From Bacteroidales bacterium (GTDB taxonomy: Bacteria; Bacteroidota; Bacteroidia; Bacteroidales; JAADJA01): a stretch of 64,000 nucleotides of DNA. This document shows, piece by piece, positions 3,862 through 57,741 of the stretch (the first letter of the stretch is position 1; every line of letters begins with the position of its first letter). The stretch lies in assembly GCA_020052415.1 (NCBI GenBank), contig JAGVPB010000013.1, positions 62,001 through 126,000 of the forward strand, written 5' to 3'. The translations under genes were made by a program, and so were the position numbers. The notes beneath the pieces are model-generated. The model was not told the origin of the DNA. It was given only the letters and a program-made list of their open reading frames with translations, and did no database searches.

Positions 3862-5211
3862 ATGAAAACAAATAGAATAATTTATCTGCTTGCTGCTTCT
3901 TTTCAATTAGTTTTATTGCATTTGAGTTCGGCTTATGGACAAAAGCCTGTGATGGAACTAACCTTTACCGCTAACTATTATGGACAATATGTTCCGCTGG
4001 ATAGTATTTTAATCGAGAATCTGACACAGGGCGGGGATACCCTGCTTTATTGGCCGGATAGTGTCCTGATATTGGACTATGCGACAGGGGTGAATGAAAA
4101 TCCTTCATCGTCTGTCACTATTTTTGAGGTTGGCCGGAATTACCCGAATCCTTTCTCTGCAAAAACCACATTCAGTATATATTTACCTTTAGAAGATTTT
4201 TTACAGGTAATTGTCTTCAATCCATTGGGGCAAAAGGTAGTTGAATATAAAAATATACTGGAAAGCGGCTATCATTTGTTTACTTTTTTCCCGGGAAACG
4301 AAAATATTTATTTTATGACTGCAACGGTGAGAGGTGCGACTAAATCCTTAAAGATGTTCAGTTTAAGCAGCCGGCTTGCCGATTATTGTTCCCTTTTCTA
4401 TGCAGGAAAAGAGACTGTAACATCCGATTATAAGTCCAACAAAGAAATTACCGATTTCGGATTTTCATTGGGCGATATCCTGCGATTTATCGCTTACGCA
4501 AAAACACCTGTTTTGATCAATGGAAGTGATGTAATTGAAGATGCCCCACTAAGTAATCAAACCTATACTTTTGAAATATTGGAAGGAATTCCCTGCCCCG
4601 GTACACCCACAGTACCCTACGAAGGCCAAACCTACAACACAGTGCAAATAGGCTCCCAGTGCTGGTTTAAGGAAAATCTTAACGTGGGTACGATGATAAA
4701 CGGAAGCGGTAACCAGACAAACAATAGCCAGAAAGAAAAGTATTGTTATGGTGACAATGCGGCAAATTGCGCAACCTACGGAGGGTTATACCAGTGGAAT
4801 GAGATGATGCAGTACAGCACCACGCCCGGTGTTCAAGGAATTTGTCCTTCAGGTTGGCATATACCCACTGATGCAGAATGGTGTACACTAACCCAATTTA
4901 TTGACCCGATGGTAAATTGTAATTCAACAGGATGGAGCGGACAGGTTGTTGGAACTAAAATGAAAAGCACAACAGGCTGGAATTCAGGTGGTAATGGGAC
5001 AAACACATTCGGTTTTACAGCCCTTCCGGGCGGCCGCCGCGACAACAGTGGGGCATTCTACGACATTGGCGGCTACGGTTACTGGTGGTCTTCTACGGAG
5101 GGCTTTACCAGCAGCGCGTGGTTCCGGGTTCTGAGATATAATTCCGCCAATGTAAGCCGTGACTTCGGCGGTAAGGTAGGCGGTCGTAGTGTTCGTTGCC
5201 TTCAGGATTGA
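3862..5211 (+). CDS. FISUMP-domain surface protein with DGR-like variable C-terminus
   Basis: This 449 aa protein begins with a Sec signal peptide (1-26, ending at AYGQ). An internal segment at about 91-140 (NYPNPFSAKTTFSIYLP, then NPLGQKVVEYK) resembles a T9SS-type sorting or beta-sandwich repeat, although that domain is usually C-terminal. From about 250 to the end there is one Fibrobacter succinogenes major paralogous (FISUMP) domain, a C-type-lectin-like fold: YNTVQIGSQCWFKENLNVGT, YQWNEMMQYS, CPSGWHIPTDAEW, and the closing GGRSVRCLQD. The last about 60 codons are rich in NNY codons at variable positions, as in DGR target proteins. Module 4 of the giant FISUMP protein at 52468-57606 is the nearest relative in the window. 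Its ligand and function are unknown. Confidence is high for the domain and lower for the DGR reading. Confidence 0.85.
   Translation: MKTNRIIYLLAASFQLVLLHLSSAYGQKPVMELTFTANYYGQYVPLDSILIENLTQGGDTLLYWPDSVLILDYATGVNENPSSSVTIFEVGRNYPNPFSAKTTFSIYLPLEDFLQVIVFNPLGQKVVEYKNILESGYHLFTFFPGNENIYFMTATVRGATKSLKMFSLSSRLADYCSLFYAGKETVTSDYKSNKEITDFGFSLGDILRFIAYAKTPVLINGSDVIEDAPLSNQTYTFEILEGIPCPGTPTVPYEGQTYNTVQIGSQCWFKENLNVGTMINGSGNQTNNSQKEKYCYGDNAANCATYGGLYQWNEMMQYSTTPGVQGICPSGWHIPTDAEWCTLTQFIDPMVNCNSTGWSGQVVGTKMKSTTGWNSGGNGTNTFGFTALPGGRRDNSGAFYDIGGYGYWWSSTEGFTSSAWFRVLRYNSANVSRDFGGKVGGRSVRCLQD
5026..5208 (+). other. Candidate DGR variable region (VR)
   Basis: This is the 3' end of the FISUMP gene. Constant residues (GFTALPGG, WSST, AW, R.L.YN, SVRC) are interspersed with codons such as GAC, AGT, TAC, GGC, TTC and GGT. 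Those are what adenine-specific mutagenesis of AAC/AAT codons would yield. Compared with module 4 of the paralogue at 53706-54290, the segment just upstream is nearly the same at protein level, while this part differs at most of the NNY positions. No template repeat or reverse transcriptase lies in the window, so this is an inference from codon pattern and position. Confidence 0.45.
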
Positions 5212-5268
5212 AAATCCGATATTTGAAATTTATTATATTTCGCCGGAGACGTAAAATTTTTTTAAAAA

Positions 5269-5379
5269 ATGGAACCTTATGATCAACTGCCTGTTTACAA
5301 AAACTTGCTACGATTTGCTATTAGCAACCTTTTACCCACTGGTTCAAGTCTTCCAACCCTGCCTTGTGTGTTAGCATGA
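5269..5379 (+). pseudogene. Relic of an Avd-like four-helix-bundle gene start
   Basis: An ATG 57 bp after the FISUMP stop opens the reading MEPYDQLPVYKNLLRF. This resembles the start of the Avd-like four-helix-bundle proteins that sit just downstream of DGR target genes in Bacteroidota (typically with an LPVYK or LPIYK motif). The resemblance ends after about 16 residues and the frame stops at codon 37, so the rest of the gene is missing. The match is short and judged from memory of the family, so it could be coincidence. Confidence 0.35.
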
Positions 5380-5620: not shown

Positions 5621-6172
5621 ATGAACGAATCAATAAAAAGAATTGCAATCCCTGATGAAGTGGTAATGAATAAAATATATGTAATCAGAGGTGTAAAAGT
5701 TATGTTGGACAGGGATTTAGCGGAACTTTACGGAGTAGAAACGAAATATTTAAAAAGACAAGTAAAAAGAAACATGGTACGTTTTCCTGAAGACTTCATG
5801 TTCGAGTTAACAGGACAGGAGTTTCAAGATTGGAGGAGCCAATTTGTCACCTCCAACAATGATAAAAAAGGACTTCGTTATGCACCTTATGCTTTTACGG
5901 AAGATGGCGTGGCACAATTATCGACAGTTTTAAATAGTGAAAGGGCAATCAAGGTAAATATACAAATTATTCGGCTGTTCAGTAAAATGCGCAGGATAGC
6001 TCTAACACATAGTGACATTTTGCAAAAGTTAGAAGAGTTAAAAAGAAATGATATTGAACAGGATAAAAAAATAGAACTCATTTTTGAATACCTTAATCAG
6101 TTTGAAAAAGTCAAACATGAAGAACTTAAATTTAAGAACCGGACCCGGATAGGATTTAAACCAGGGCAATAA
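5621..6172 (+). CDS. ORF6N-domain DNA-binding protein (phage antirepressor-like)
   Basis: This 183 aa protein begins with an ORF6N domain (about 10-120): IPDEVVMNKIYVIRGVKVML, DRDLAELYGVETKYLKRQVK, then RFPEDFMFELT and the conserved YAPYAFTEDGVAQLSTVL. A helical coiled region (about 125-165, KLEELKRNDIEQDKKIELIF) follows. ORF6N is known from phage antirepressors and is widespread in Bacteroidota genomes as a cargo gene of accessory regions. The ORF is open upstream to 5450, but the promoter box at 5593-5600 and the family start point to 5621. It sits between the FISUMP/Avd relic and a toxin-antitoxin pair, which fits an accessory block. Its regulatory target is unknown. Confidence 0.85.
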   Translation: MNESIKRIAIPDEVVMNKIYVIRGVKVMLDRDLAELYGVETKYLKRQVKRNMVRFPEDFMFELTGQEFQDWRSQFVTSNNDKKGLRYAPYAFTEDGVAQLSTVLNSERAIKVNIQIIRLFSKMRRIALTHSDILQKLEELKRNDIEQDKKIELIFEYLNQFEKVKHEELKFKNRTRIGFKPGQ

Positions 6173-52467: not shown

Positions 52468-55400
52468 TTAATTCTTTATACACCTAACTGATAAACCATG
52501 AGTTTTTTCACCACCATTTTTATAGATTTGTGGATTGCCAACATTCAGGATTCTAAACCAGGCATGATTGGTATTGCTTGGATTTAAACTCGAAGTAAAA
52601 AATACGCTCCTTTCAGGTAAAAATAAAAAACCTGAACCATCCCATGCTCTTTGTCCTGATAATATAGCGTTGAACCCTGATATATTTTCCTGGAAAAGTA
52701 CATTACCGATATAAGTACCTTGCCATCCCTGTAAGAATTGATTATTAACTGAGGGATCTATATTGTGGCTCATTTCAAACCACTCTAAATCGGTAGGAAT
52801 GTGCCAGCCTTCCGGACATATTCCTTGGGTTCCTTGTTGAGTATTATAATCCATTAATTCATTCCATTGGTAAAGCGACCCAAATATTTCACAATTGCTT
52901 GATAGGTTATCATAGCAGTACTTCTCAATAATCCCATTATTGCTTTGATTTTGACTTCCAACAATCATTGTTCCAATGTTTAAGTTCTCTGCCATCCAGC
53001 ATTGGTCATCCACTTGAAAAGTGTTATAGGATTGCCCATCACGGATATCAATTATTGGATCACCACAATCCCACTGAATAATGATGTCATCTTTTACACA
53101 CCTTATTGCAAACGCGCAAAGTTTATTAACACCATTTTTATAAATTTGAGGATTTCCTTCATCCAATCTTCTAAACCAAGAGGCAGTAGTATTATAAGAA
53201 TTTATGGTCGAAGTGTAGAGAAAACTTCTTTCCCCGAGATAAGAATAACCAGACTCAAACCAGTACTGTCCAGATAATAAGGCATTAAATCCCGAAGATC
53301 CACCTTCTAGTAATTGTGTTCCAATATCTATTCCCTGCCAGTTTTGTAAGTTAATGTTATTTACTGATGGATCCAAATAATTACACATATTGAACCATTC
53401 AAGGTCGGAGGGTACGTGCCATTCTTCAGGACAAATACCTTGAGACATCTCTTCATTTGAATAATTCATCAGTTCATTCCATTGATATAAACCGCCATAA
53501 ATTTCACAATTAGACTCAATGTCATCATAGCAATACTTTTCCGATATTTCATTATTACTTTGGTTCTGGCTACCATTGATTTTAGTCCCATAATCAAGAT
53601 TTTCAGCCATCCAACATAGTTGATCTATTTGAACTGTGTTGTATATCTGACTGTCACGAGTATCAATTAATGGGTCACCACAACTCCAGGTGGGAGGTGA
53701 AGATTCTTTGATACACCGAACACTAAAACCGGTGTCTTTATAGTAAGTGTAACGACCTATACTGCTGTTATTATAACTCAATGACCGGCGCCACGCAAGT
53801 TCAGCATTACTCTCTGTAGAAGACCAAAAATAGGCGGCATAACCCAAATTGTCAAAATTATCATTGTGAGTTCGGTAGCCACCCGGAAGGGCAGTGAATC
53901 CGGAAACATTTGTTCCATTACCGCCTGAATTCCAGCCAGTTGTATTTTTCATTTTAAGTCCAACATCTGTTCCACTCCATCCATTTGAAGTATTACAATT
54001 CACTGTAGGGTCAATAAATTGGGTTAGTGTACACCATTCTGAATCTGTAGGTACTTCCCATCCTATTGGACAAATACCCTGTGTTCCTTGTTGTGTATTA
54101 TATTCCATCATTTCGTTCCATTGGTATAAACCACCATAGTTATCACAGTTAGTTGGATTATTGCCATAGCAATATTTTTCAATAACTCCATCGTCTGACA
54201 TATCGTTTAGACCCAATATCACAGTTCCAATGTTCAGATTTTCAGCCATCCAGCATTGCTCACCAATTTGTACGGTATTATAAGCCTGACCATCCCTTGC
54301 ATCAATCAGAGGATCCCCGCAACCCCATACCGGTTGGTTTATGGTTATAAAAGACCAATCCGGACCTTCAGTAAAATTACCATGGTCATCATGAGCAATA
54401 ATCTTCCAAAAATAAGAGGTATAGAAAGTCAGAATGCCTGGATTATAATCAGAATTAGTTTGACCTGAAGATACAATAGGAGGCGGATTTATTGTACCAA
54501 AATAAACGTCATAGGTCAGAGGATCATTTTCCGGATCGGTACATGACCATGATAAAGTTGTATTTATAGGCTGGTTTACTGCGCCATCAGGAGGTTGAGG
54601 AGTGAATGGCGATGAAGGAGGTTGGTTACCATACTCATCCTTTATACATCTTATACCAAATGCCGCCAATTTATTGACTCCATTTTTATATATTTGAGGA
54701 TTACCGGGATCCATTCTTCTAAACCATGAACCTATCGTATTATACGGATTGATTGTTGACGTGTAAAACAAACTCCTTTCACCAAGATAGGAAAATCCGG
54801 TTGCATACCAGTATTCACCTGAAAATAAAGCATTAAAACCTGAGCTCCCTCCCTGTAGTAATTGGGTTCCGATATCCGTTCCCTGCCAGCTTTGCAAATT
54901 AATATTATTAACTGTCGGATCTAAATAATGACTCATGTTGTACCATTCCAAGTCAGAGGCCACATGCCAGCCCTCGGGACAAATACCTTGTGAGCCTTCA
55001 ATTTCGGAATATTCCATGAGTTCGTTCCACTGGTATAGACCACCATAAATATCACAACTTGTTTCAGTATCATTATAACAATATTTTTCAATGATCCCAT
55101 TGTCGCTTTGATTTTGACTCCCGCTGATCATTGTTCCAATGTTCATATTTTCAGCCATCCAGCATTGTTGATCAATTTGTACGGTATTATAAAGCTGCCC
55201 GTCACGGGGATCGTTATATGGATCACCACAATCCCAGGGTGCAGCTAAAGTATCTTTAATGCATCGTAAGGCAAGTCCGTGAGATTTTTCACAACCATTT
55301 CTGTATATCTGTGGATTTCCTGCGTAAAGATTTCTGAACCACGAATGTAGTGAATTATAAGGATTAATCGTTGACGTAAAAAATACACTCCTTTCATTTA

Positions 55401-57606
55401 AATATAAAAATCCAGATCCATCCCATGCCCTTTGTCCTGACAATAATGCCTCAAATCCTGAACTTCCACCCTGAAGTAGCTGAGTTCCAATATCTGTCCC
55501 CTGCCAGCCTTGTAAATTGGGATTATTGACAGTGGGATCCAGGTAATGACTCATATCATACCATTCCAAATCAGAAGGAACATGCCAGCCCACAGGGCAT
55601 ATTCCCTGGGTGCCTTCGATTGTTGTGTATTCCATCAATTCATTCCATTGATATAGAGCACCGTAGGTATCGCAGTTACTTGAGTTATTATCATAGCAAT
55701 ATTTCTCAATGATTTCGTTATCACTTTGATTTTGACTTCCGTTTATCAAATTTCCAATATTCAGATTTTCAGCCATCCAGCATTGCTGATCAATTTGAAC
55801 CGTGTTATATAACTGCCCGTCACGGTTGTCAAGCAATGGGTTACCACATGCCCATCCGGTCTCCGGTAAGGTGGTAAAATGCCAAATCGCACCTTCGGTA
55901 GAATCACCATAAGTATCGTAAGCAACAATTTTCCAGTAATATTGAGTGCTAAAATCCAATAATCCCGGATTATAAGAATTAACTGCCACATTGGTTGCAA
56001 GGAGTGGCGGTATCTCGTTTGTTCCAAAATAAACATTATAAGTCAGATCGTCACCTTCGGGATCCGTACAAACCCATGTTAGATTGATATTTGTTTGTAC
56101 CCCTGTTTCGCCATTAGCCGGGACCGGATCAGATGGCATATTTGGAGGTTGATTGGGAACAAAATTACTTTTCAAACAACGAACTGACCGGCCTGAAGCC
56201 CGTGCATAAGTATTTGAATTGAAATTAAAGGAATCAAAATAAATTCCTCTCGCTCCGGTCGAATTAACGGTTGTAGTCCAGTAATTTCCCCATGAACCAT
56301 CATTCGAAATATTTCCGGAACTTTCACTTCGCCAGCCTGAGGCCGGAAGTTTAAGTAGTGAGTTAAAGGCATCTGCCCTGTTATTCCATCCTGTAGTGGC
56401 ATCCTGCCACTCGGTCAGGGAAGGAATTTTCCATCCATCCGGGCAGGGATTATTAACAATTAAGGGTTCCTGCCAGAGATTGTCGTTTTGCGGGCTGCGC
56501 CAATCATAAGGATCATCATCTACAGTGATAAAATCAGCATGTCCGGGGATATCAGAAAAAGAAAGTGTGTTTGTAGTTGCACTGTTACGGAACTGGTGTC
56601 CATCAATCAATCGTCCCCATTGAAATAAATCGCCAAAACTCAGTGCATCATTATATGCGGTTGCCACCTGGGTTGCTCCTAAATTACGGTCGAGCCAGCA
56701 TTTGTTACTAAATTCAACCGTATTATATTCCAAACCGTTGAATATTACTGTCGAGGTACCACAAATAAATAAGGGTAAAATTGTATCCTTTACGGGATAA
56801 GTGCATTTACCGGAATTTGGTTCCCACTTAACAACTTTGTCGTCATTATCTACCTGTGTATCCATATTGAAATCACCAGCAAAATATCCGGTAAGGTTCT
56901 CCTGAAGGAGCCATACTTCATTTTTATCAAGGTTGTTTATCTGACCACTGGCATCTGCATCGGCAGCGATCATACCCCAAATAGTCGGTGATAGTTGCTT
57001 CTGCGAAAGTGAGCCACCCATAGCCTGTTCGGCGGAAAACGCAAAATCATAAGAGTAAACTCCGCCTGATTCGACAAGTGGTATTGCTGAAATAACTGAA
57101 AGATGATTGCGGTGATGTATCCGGGTATAAAATCCGTTGCTGATTTCTGATTCTACGGTTAGCAAACTAATACCATCAATATCTCTGAGATCACCGTTGC
57201 TCATAAGGAAACCCGCTCTGCGTCCTATCAGTTCGAACTTGATTTGATCACCTACAACATATTGTTTTAATATATCCACAAGTACCCAATCAACAACACT
57301 AAATGAAGGAATAGCAATTACGGATTCAGTTCCATTATAGTTCCAGGGATCAACATTATAGGGTTGATCATTGGGTAAATAACCCAGAACATTGAGAAAT
57401 GGTGTCATCTGACCATTGTAATAAGGTCCTTCAAGATAAACTTTGATATTCAACTGAACATTATAAATCCCTGGTGCCGCGACATTTTGCGAGGAAAGAT
57501 TTGTCGGGGAATTTACTTTGTCTGTAAAAGAATTGTAATTAGTGTCCTGTGAATTTACCAAAAGCGCCGGAAGGCACATGAAAAGAAGTAATGTAATTTG
57601 TTTCAT
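52468..57606 (-). CDS. Giant six-module FISUMP surface protein
   Basis: With the ATG at 57606 the protein has 1,712 aa and a signal peptide (MKQITLLLFMCLPALLVNSQ). An N-terminal module (about 30-265) matches the second domain of the cupredoxin fusion at 26742-27797 and has dockerin-like Asp repeats. Six FISUMP modules follow, roughly at 56790-56170, 55830-55250, 55210-54640, 54290-53706, 53670-53083 and 53055-52468. Two FN3-like linkers (LTWVCTDPEGDDLTYNVYFG and its sibling LSWSCTDPENDPLTYDVYFG) precede modules 2 and 4. Modules 2, 3, 5 and 6 form one subfamily (MSHYLDPTVNN, LLQGGSSGF). Module 4 (WCTLTQFIDPTVNC) is close to the FISUMP protein at 3862. No C-terminal sorting tail is seen. Function unknown. 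Confidence 0.88.
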   Translation of the reverse strand: MKQITLLLFMCLPALLVNSQDTNYNSFTDKVNSPTNLSSQNVAAPGIYNVQLNIKVYLEGPYYNGQMTPFLNVLGYLPNDQPYNVDPWNYNGTESVIAIPSFSVVDWVLVDILKQYVVGDQIKFELIGRRAGFLMSNGDLRDIDGISLLTVESEISNGFYTRIHHRNHLSVISAIPLVESGGVYSYDFAFSAEQAMGGSLSQKQLSPTIWGMIAADADASGQINNLDKNEVWLLQENLTGYFAGDFNMDTQVDNDDKVVKWEPNSGKCTYPVKDTILPLFICGTSTVIFNGLEYNTVEFSNKCWLDRNLGATQVATAYNDALSFGDLFQWGRLIDGHQFRNSATTNTLSFSDIPGHADFITVDDDPYDWRSPQNDNLWQEPLIVNNPCPDGWKIPSLTEWQDATTGWNNRADAFNSLLKLPASGWRSESSGNISNDGSWGNYWTTTVNSTGARGIYFDSFNFNSNTYARASGRSVRCLKSNFVPNQPPNMPSDPVPANGETGVQTNINLTWVCTDPEGDDLTYNVYFGTNEIPPLLATNVAVNSYNPGLLDFSTQYYWKIVAYDTYGDSTEGAIWHFTTLPETGWACGNPLLDNRDGQLYNTVQIDQQCWMAENLNIGNLINGSQNQSDNEIIEKYCYDNNSSNCDTYGALYQWNELMEYTTIEGTQGICPVGWHVPSDLEWYDMSHYLDPTVNNPNLQGWQGTDIGTQLLQGGSSGFEALLSGQRAWDGSGFLYLNERSVFFTSTINPYNSLHSWFRNLYAGNPQIYRNGCEKSHGLALRCIKDTLAAPWDCGDPYNDPRDGQLYNTVQIDQQCWMAENMNIGTMISGSQNQSDNGIIEKYCYNDTETSCDIYGGLYQWNELMEYSEIEGSQGICPEGWHVASDLEWYNMSHYLDPTVNNINLQSWQGTDIGTQLLQGGSSGFNALFSGEYWYATGFSYLGERSLFYTSTINPYNTIGSWFRRMDPGNPQIYKNGVNKLAAFGIRCIKDEYGNQPPSSPFTPQPPDGAVNQPINTTLSWSCTDPENDPLTYDVYFGTINPPPIVSSGQTNSDYNPGILTFYTSYFWKIIAHDDHGNFTEGPDWSFITINQPVWGCGDPLIDARDGQAYNTVQIGEQCWMAENLNIGTVILGLNDMSDDGVIEKYCYGNNPTNCDNYGGLYQWNEMMEYNTQQGTQGICPIGWEVPTDSEWCTLTQFIDPTVNCNTSNGWSGTDVGLKMKNTTGWNSGGNGTNVSGFTALPGGYRTHNDNFDNLGYAAYFWSSTESNAELAWRRSLSYNNSSIGRYTYYKDTGFSVRCIKESSPPTWSCGDPLIDTRDSQIYNTVQIDQLCWMAENLDYGTKINGSQNQSNNEISEKYCYDDIESNCEIYGGLYQWNELMNYSNEEMSQGICPEEWHVPSDLEWFNMCNYLDPSVNNINLQNWQGIDIGTQLLEGGSSGFNALLSGQYWFESGYSYLGERSFLYTSTINSYNTTASWFRRLDEGNPQIYKNGVNKLCAFAIRCVKDDIIIQWDCGDPIIDIRDGQSYNTFQVDDQCWMAENLNIGTMIVGSQNQSNNGIIEKYCYDNLSSNCEIFGSLYQWNELMDYNTQQGTQGICPEGWHIPTDLEWFEMSHNIDPSVNNQFLQGWQGTYIGNVLFQENISGFNAILSGQRAWDGSGFLFLPERSVFFTSSLNPSNTNHAWFRILNVGNPQIYKNGGEKTHGLSVRCIKN

Positions 57607-57741
57607 AATTTCTATGGTATTGATACGCTCAAAGGTATAAATAATCTTTAAATGCAAAAAACATTAAGATGAAATTTATTTTGGAAAGTAAAAAAAATCT
57701 GTAACCCGATTAATTCATAAAATTGCTTTGTAAGAAAGAGT

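Follow-up and report, generated by a model that had tools for sequence, protein, structure and literature searches.

Diversity-generating retroelements (DGRs) whose target genes outlive the rest of the element are a kind already known. In Table 1 of a study on Treponema denticola (PMC4891356), eight of 17 isolates hold target genes together with no reverse transcriptase (RT) and no template repeat (TR). As far as that study describes them, the variable regions (VRs) of these leftover targets outlast the core of the element and differ from the templates of relatives mostly at adenines; the targets are of FGE-sulfatase type, and the templates come from the same species. Similarly, the Fib_succ_major (FISUMP) domain is an established DGR target domain, with nine proteins in Table 2 of a survey of human microbiomes (PMC4159848).

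The gene at 3862-5211 (forward strand) of the window, i.e. of the whole 64,000-nucleotide stretch analysed here, resembles both. Like the T. denticola leftovers described in PMC4891356, its VR appears to have outlasted the core and differs from the templates of relatives mostly at adenines, and it shares FISUMP as the target domain with the human microbiome proteins of PMC4159848. In contrast to T. denticola, the comparison uses foreign templates and synonymous codons, a stub of the accessory gene avd remains, and some of the footprints are internal modules. The targets tabulated in PMC4159848, unlike the window gene, are metagenomic and were detected through TR/VR pairs or TR similarity. The avd scar, several template origins and internal footprints are the unusual traits of the present case. 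Judged from sequence comparison, 3862-5211 is very probably a former DGR target that was orphaned through loss of an adjacent cassette.

The FISUMP gene and intact DGRs with FISUMP-like targets

The open reading frame at 3862-5211 encodes a protein of 449 amino acids with a C-terminal FISUMP domain (4642-5202 on the forward strand by profile coordinates). Both PF09603 (E=5.1e-37, 128.4 bits vs a curated cut-off of 33.9) and TIGR02145 (E=3.3e-41, 141.9 bits vs a curated cut-off of 41.65) recognize the protein. A search of viral contigs with it found no relative. The genome comprises 4.67 Mb in 94 contigs with a completeness of 97.4% and contains 21 FISUMP matches. Twenty of them cover most of the profile and were analysed, and one partial match (L029) was left out. 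The DNA alignment of three paralogs to the gene ends at 5033-5037, that is, at the start of the variable stretch. A stretch resembling the T9SS type A sorting domain (TIGR04183, 23.4 bits vs a cut-off of 23) is located at 4141-4353 (residues 94-164), internally and N-terminal of the FISUMP domain rather than at the C-terminus; similar stretches are present in L012, L024 and L027 (26.5-32.3 bits).

The AlphaFold2 model of 4603-5208 has a pLDDT of 90.8. The top rows of the VIA-align comparison are CarF (Z 9.0), InvE (8.7), PorK (8.3) and Lcl of L. pneumophila (8.0; 98 aligned, rmsd 2.4). Further down are numerous chains of the C-type-lectin and FGE-like kinds, as well as TaqVP, a DGR variable protein (Z 6.7; 143 aligned, rmsd 3.3). 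Foldseek with the domain model returned no match at E<=0.001, and a profile search against PDB sequences returned none. As a prediction, the model fits a C-type-lectin/FGE-like fold, with which it is compatible without being proof of it.

Among the best 13 of 80 loci from a contig search (L091-L103), nine are DGRs whose VRs are FISUMP-like and whose templates match them; FISUMP-like target ends were judged by sequence and confirmed by PF09603 for genome G016 only. L097, L100 and L101 have no TR/VR pair, and the pair of L098 belongs to a target that is not FISUMP-like. In seven of the nine pairs, which are well registered, 21-32 mismatches fall on template adenines vs 0-2 elsewhere. The pair of L092, cut by the contig end, has 8 vs 2, and that of L095, which is out of register probably owing to an indel, has 27 vs 28. 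One of the nine, L091 (G016:C397, JAJRTT010000493.1), is from the same genus as the window's genome and has the same target domain as the window gene; it is a full DGR with FISUMP target, Avd, template and RT in the complete order VR-Avd-TR-RT. L099 (Bacteroidales bacterium Tobar14m-G11, JAIPBS010000002.1) is like the window in its FISUMP-like target end with a VR of 61 codons (62 in the window) and in its alignable 3' flank and avd start. It keeps a full avd, hairpin, template and RT, whereas the window retains the VR and an avd stub only.

The motif LPIGNLTSQ, which we take to be typical of DGR RTs, was found in four of 20 RT loci examined from a search of 60 genomes and is present in the RT of G016, too. 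LPVYK or LPVYR is located near the start of nine readable Avds, a set that includes L098 with its other kind of target, and of the L103 Avd, whose record contains a frameshift. The Avds of L099 and L091 score above the cut-off of PF22296 (bAvd-type accessory gene). By eye, four of ten DGR cassettes seemingly encode an accessory ORF of ~165 aa between target and avd (L092:322-807, L094:4422-4910 and pieces in L091 and L103). The L094 ORF has a weak likeness to MutS domain I (E=0.0023, short of the cut-off) and the L092 ORF matches no family above cut-off. On two viral contigs from IMG/VR (L202, L203), there is a DGR whose RT is related (52% identity) and whose target end is like a FISUMP VR, together with a matching template. 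A second DGR of the same genus (L080, G003:C47) has a target end that is not FISUMP-like by eye; in its best 60-base TR/VR segment, 20 of 20 mismatches are at template adenines.

Codon footprint and adenine linkage of the variable region

The VR footprint spans 62 codons at 5023-5208 (forward strand). The initial annotation had proposed a DGR variable region in this FISUMP protein starting at 5026; the VR-homologous stretch is confirmed, but begins with LPGG at 5023, three bases earlier. To define template-Asn columns, VRs were aligned to the peptides of seven of the nine templates (L092, whose VR is truncated at the end of its contig, and the out-of-register L095 were excluded), which gave 20 columns with AAC or AAT in at least 70% of the templates. 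The window gene has NNY codons at 19 of these 20 columns, at 22 of the 37 other VR columns and at 54 of 111 positions of the domain upstream of the VR (p=4.9e-5). The VRs of the seven intact cassettes have NNY at 19-20 of the 20.

Since NNY may stem from amino-acid preference, 4-fold degenerate codons, whose third base is free, were tested. At template-Asn columns, a pyrimidine is found in seven of seven such codons of the window gene, so that its apparently AAY-derived codons include synonymous sites. The same holds for six of seven in module 4 of a multi-module FISUMP protein encoded at 52468-57657, an internal second footprint (53704-53889, reverse strand; NNY 19/20) that is matched by the L099 template as well. 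Together, both have 13/14 pyrimidines vs 37/88 upstream (p=3e-4). For large groups of domains, a first 4-fold test was partly circular, as the groups had been picked on all codons, and was repeated with domains classed only by their other codons. By this independent criterion, seven fresh-looking domains of the window's genome (L009-L015) have 38/41 pyrimidines at 4-fold template-Asn codons vs 153/324 upstream (p=5e-9). The remaining thirteen of the 20 own domains show no clear excess (25/40 and 24/42). The third-base C/T pattern of the window VR is the same as that of TR L096 at 18 of 19 Asn columns and as that of module 4 at 10 of 18.

The window VR differs from TR L096 at 43 of 69 adenines vs 24 of 117 other bases (p=1.2e-8), although this and the following comparisons rest on foreign templates and not on the true template of the window gene. 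The contrast is likewise found with L093 (p=2.8e-7), L099 (3.0e-7), L102 (7.8e-7) and L091 (6.9e-4) and is marginal with L103 (29/50 A vs 57/133 non-A, p=0.048); because the templates are interrelated, these tests are not independent. L092, L094 and L095 were left out. The template of L091 fits the window VR less well than the L096 template does, with non-A mismatches at 46/126 vs 24/117. When the VRs of L093, L096 and L102 were substituted for their templates, the contrast became far weaker, yet still nominal (p 0.0016-0.0096). When all nine templates were compared with the complete window by blastn (E<=0.01), five matched from 5023 on (best E=5e-12), and L099 additionally aligned to the VR of module 4 (53889-53813, E=5e-6). 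One 22-base match is located elsewhere, and four templates have no match. With foreign templates aligning and differences concentrated on template adenines, the proposed DGR variable region is supported.

It had been claimed that the last ~60 codons are rich in NNY and vary against module 4, and this is borne out. Window gene and module 4 differ in amino acid at 21 of 23 template-Asn columns, defined here by a manually entered consensus of templates from other genomes. The corresponding counts are 15 of 39 for the remaining VR columns and 38 of 127 for aligned residues upstream. At the Asn columns, codon positions 1, 2 and 3 differ at 18, 14 and 10 of 23, with just two pyrimidine-purine switches at position 3. 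The upstream residues follow the ordinary order with 28, 23 and 64 of 127. As a comparator, module 4 is not neutral, because it bears the same footprint itself.

A reading without any DGR would have FISUMP ends diversify under selection, with the binding-face residues Tyr, Ser, Asp, Asn and Gly happening to have NNY codons. The variable ends of the thirteen domains without clear 4-fold excess fit such a process, and so do some domains of the genus, such as L178 and L189 of G001, which pass a 2-fold criterion and fail the 4-fold one (6/12 each). It would leave the pyrimidine excess of the seven fresh-looking domains at 4-fold codons unexpected, as well as the adenine-linked differences and the adjoining avd stub, and is considered highly improbable.

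Footprints in other FISUMP domains of the genome and the genus

The footprint is kept in seven of the 20 FISUMP domains of the genome, which look as fresh as the VRs of intact cassettes. Three of the seven belong to proteins with multiple FISUMP modules, namely module 4 of the 52468-57657 protein and both modules of a protein on contig C81, and two are internal. The modules L022, L023, L025 and L026 of the 52468-57657 protein have NNY at 12-13 of 20 columns, near background. Outside the Asn columns, the seven fresh VRs agree at 48-76% of bases, vs 57-86% for the seven templates of different genomes. One recent template for all seven is therefore unlikely, and their sequences suggest several template origins. 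How DGR-made variants are gained, lost and domesticated thereby becomes testable.

The FISUMP domains of this genome are joined to differing N-terminal parts. Given these partners and the footprints in internal modules, the domains appear to move, and module shuffling would be the simplest cause of the internal footprints. The same observations fit a variant that overlaps with the reading of an orphaned target, in which the gene never stood beside a live cassette in this lineage and was copied or acquired, together with an avd scrap, from a DGR target elsewhere. It takes sister genomes to separate this from decay in place, and either history ends in an orphan target; we regard the variant as unlikely.

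In the genus, 28 of the best-scoring domains, which are not a random sample, were analysed in the same way. The group passing the 2-fold codon criterion has 50/70 vs 270/495 at 4-fold codons (p=0.005), a weaker signal than in the window's own genome. NNY reaches 85-90% at the template-Asn columns of domains from G004 (L183, L197), G013 (L196), G011 (L185, L199), G014 (L187) and G009 (L186). No clear DGR RT was found in these five genomes, several of whose assemblies are incomplete. Orphan DGR targets may be common in the genus.

These footprints suggest that a DGR target can be recognized after its RT and template are lost, by means of the templates of relatives and the third-base bias at synonymous codons. 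Surveys that search for RTs first overlook such orphans. A tentative and rather doubtful extension is that DGRs of this genus act as hit-and-run diversifiers, which arrive, mutate a FISUMP gene and are lost, while the fixed variants are shuffled into large multi-domain adhesins. If so, dead DGR targets written by several templates would form a dated series in the genome, readable from synonymous codons alone.

The 3' flank and the search for the cassette

From just after the VR into avd, 5212-5336 aligns to L099 with 71.5% identity over 130 columns (blastn against the ten-cassette set, E=2.4e-11); the local score is 72, whereas none of 300 shuffles exceeded 33. For the avd part, there are also matches to L093 and L096. 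The aligned region consists of a homologous 3' flank (5212-5268, forward strand) and a pseudogene stub of avd (PF22296 bAvd-type) with its first ~22 codons (5269-5336, forward strand). The translated stub starts with MEPYDQLPVYK and, after a frameshift due to a 1-nt insertion near 5300, continues with TCYDLLLATFY, both frames being seen by tblastn; the L099 counterpart is LATYDQLPVYKVCYDLLIMTFY. In six-frame translations, a profile HMM built from nine Avds gave the two stub frames 8.2 and 6.7 bits (E 0.9 and 2.6). The stub, which is short, was retained despite these low scores because of the strong DNA alignment and its position. Across 87 loci and the window, the motif Y[DE]xL[PK][VLI][YF] is found only at the stub (including three loci containing it) and in the intact Avd of the same genus. 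Homology to L099 ends near 5336, and the rest of avd, the TR and the RT were not found after the stub.

The 3' flanks of the 19 further FISUMP domains of the genome, which are coding sequence in the case of internal modules and comprise only 544 bases to the contig end for L018, yielded no recognizable avd remnant. The best blastn match there has E=5e-4, and the best matches are located in or near the VR of the next module or are short. The genome contains no second full copy of the window's 3' flank, and tRNA and Rfam scans of that flank gave no match. The Avd profile HMM scored two places elsewhere in the genome better than the stub, L087 (G000:C77:25583-25900, E 1.6e-10) and L086 (C20:5924-6175, E 5.8e-6); both were rejected as probable generic four-helix-bundle (23S IVP-like) proteins, judged by eye.

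In nine of ten intact cassettes, the 100 bases after the VR include a stem with five or more bp, three or more of them GC pairs, whereas no such GC-rich stem is formed after the window VR. For phage BPP-1, a hairpin after the VR is reported to be required for homing (PMC3240598). By analogy, the hairpins could be relevant in FISUMP DGR cassettes, where they may also be terminators. An equally strong stem is found after three of 12 other own FISUMP genes (L009, L014, L027) and is absent in nine, and among the stems listed only that of L099 has a GRNA loop. The missing hairpin is therefore weak evidence.

The initial annotation had noted that no RT lies in the window and that the cassette may be elsewhere or lost. 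The first point is confirmed and extends to the assembled genome: a PF00078 search of the genome gave zero matches, and the RT of the same-genus DGR in G016 found no match at E<=1. The L099 RT was searched against 17 genomes of the genus and is matched in G003 (E=1.6e-150), in G016 (E=1.2e-159) and weakly in G014 (E=4.2e-7; that RT reads QGSPLSP), with none in the window's genome. RT remnants sought in the window gave chance-level matches only. The template was sought across the genome at DNA level with 4940-5211; FISUMP paralogs and short matches were all that this yielded, with 40 of its 43 candidates scored. In a simulation with a genome-sized search space, run locally and with settings that may differ from those of the actual genome search, the seven usable TR/VR pairs find each other at E<=1.3e-47. 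Of the parts of a complete, active DGR, neither an RT nor a near-identical template was found, and of avd a frameshifted stub only. The lack of a near-identical template had been named in advance as a sign against a DGR. None was indeed found in this genome, but a DGR origin is still supported, since the comparison with foreign templates and the avd scar explain the absence.

The 94-contig assembly could lack an RT-template locus, and the DGR contigs of two relatives are as short as 5.6 and 7.6 kb. A VR that is still active and written in trans from such an unassembled locus, with the seven fresh FISUMP domains as remote targets, would have a precedent in T. denticola, where a single RT and template are described as having remote targets (PMC4891356). 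It would agree with a completeness below 100% and with domains that look as fresh as the VRs of intact cassettes. Neither RT nor template was found in the genome, however, the seven VRs are too dissimilar outside the Asn columns for one recent template to be likely, the window VR has no GC-rich 3' stem, and two of the seven lie within internal modules. Writing in trans is thus quite improbable. Between the two fates named for the cassette, loss is favoured over a place elsewhere, because the search of the genome revealed neither template nor RT and the gene is followed by an avd stub that is frameshifted and truncated.

For an orphaned target, the following course is proposed. An RT with its Avd helper would once have made a copy of a template RNA whose variable codons were mostly AAC or AAT. 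Adenines would have been randomly altered in the copy, which then replaced the 3' end of the FISUMP gene, and repeated rewriting may have produced many forms of a putative C-type-lectin-like binding face that possibly served ligand binding. The adjacent cassette would then have decayed: avd gained the 1-nt insertion and was cut off after ~22 codons, and template and RT were deleted, presumably in this order. The last mutated version would thereby have been fixed and now evolve as an ordinary gene, no longer mutated today.

Downstream of the avd stub, an ORF6N-domain protein (E=2.9e-35) is encoded at 5621-6172. ORF6N domains are common in phages and mobile elements.
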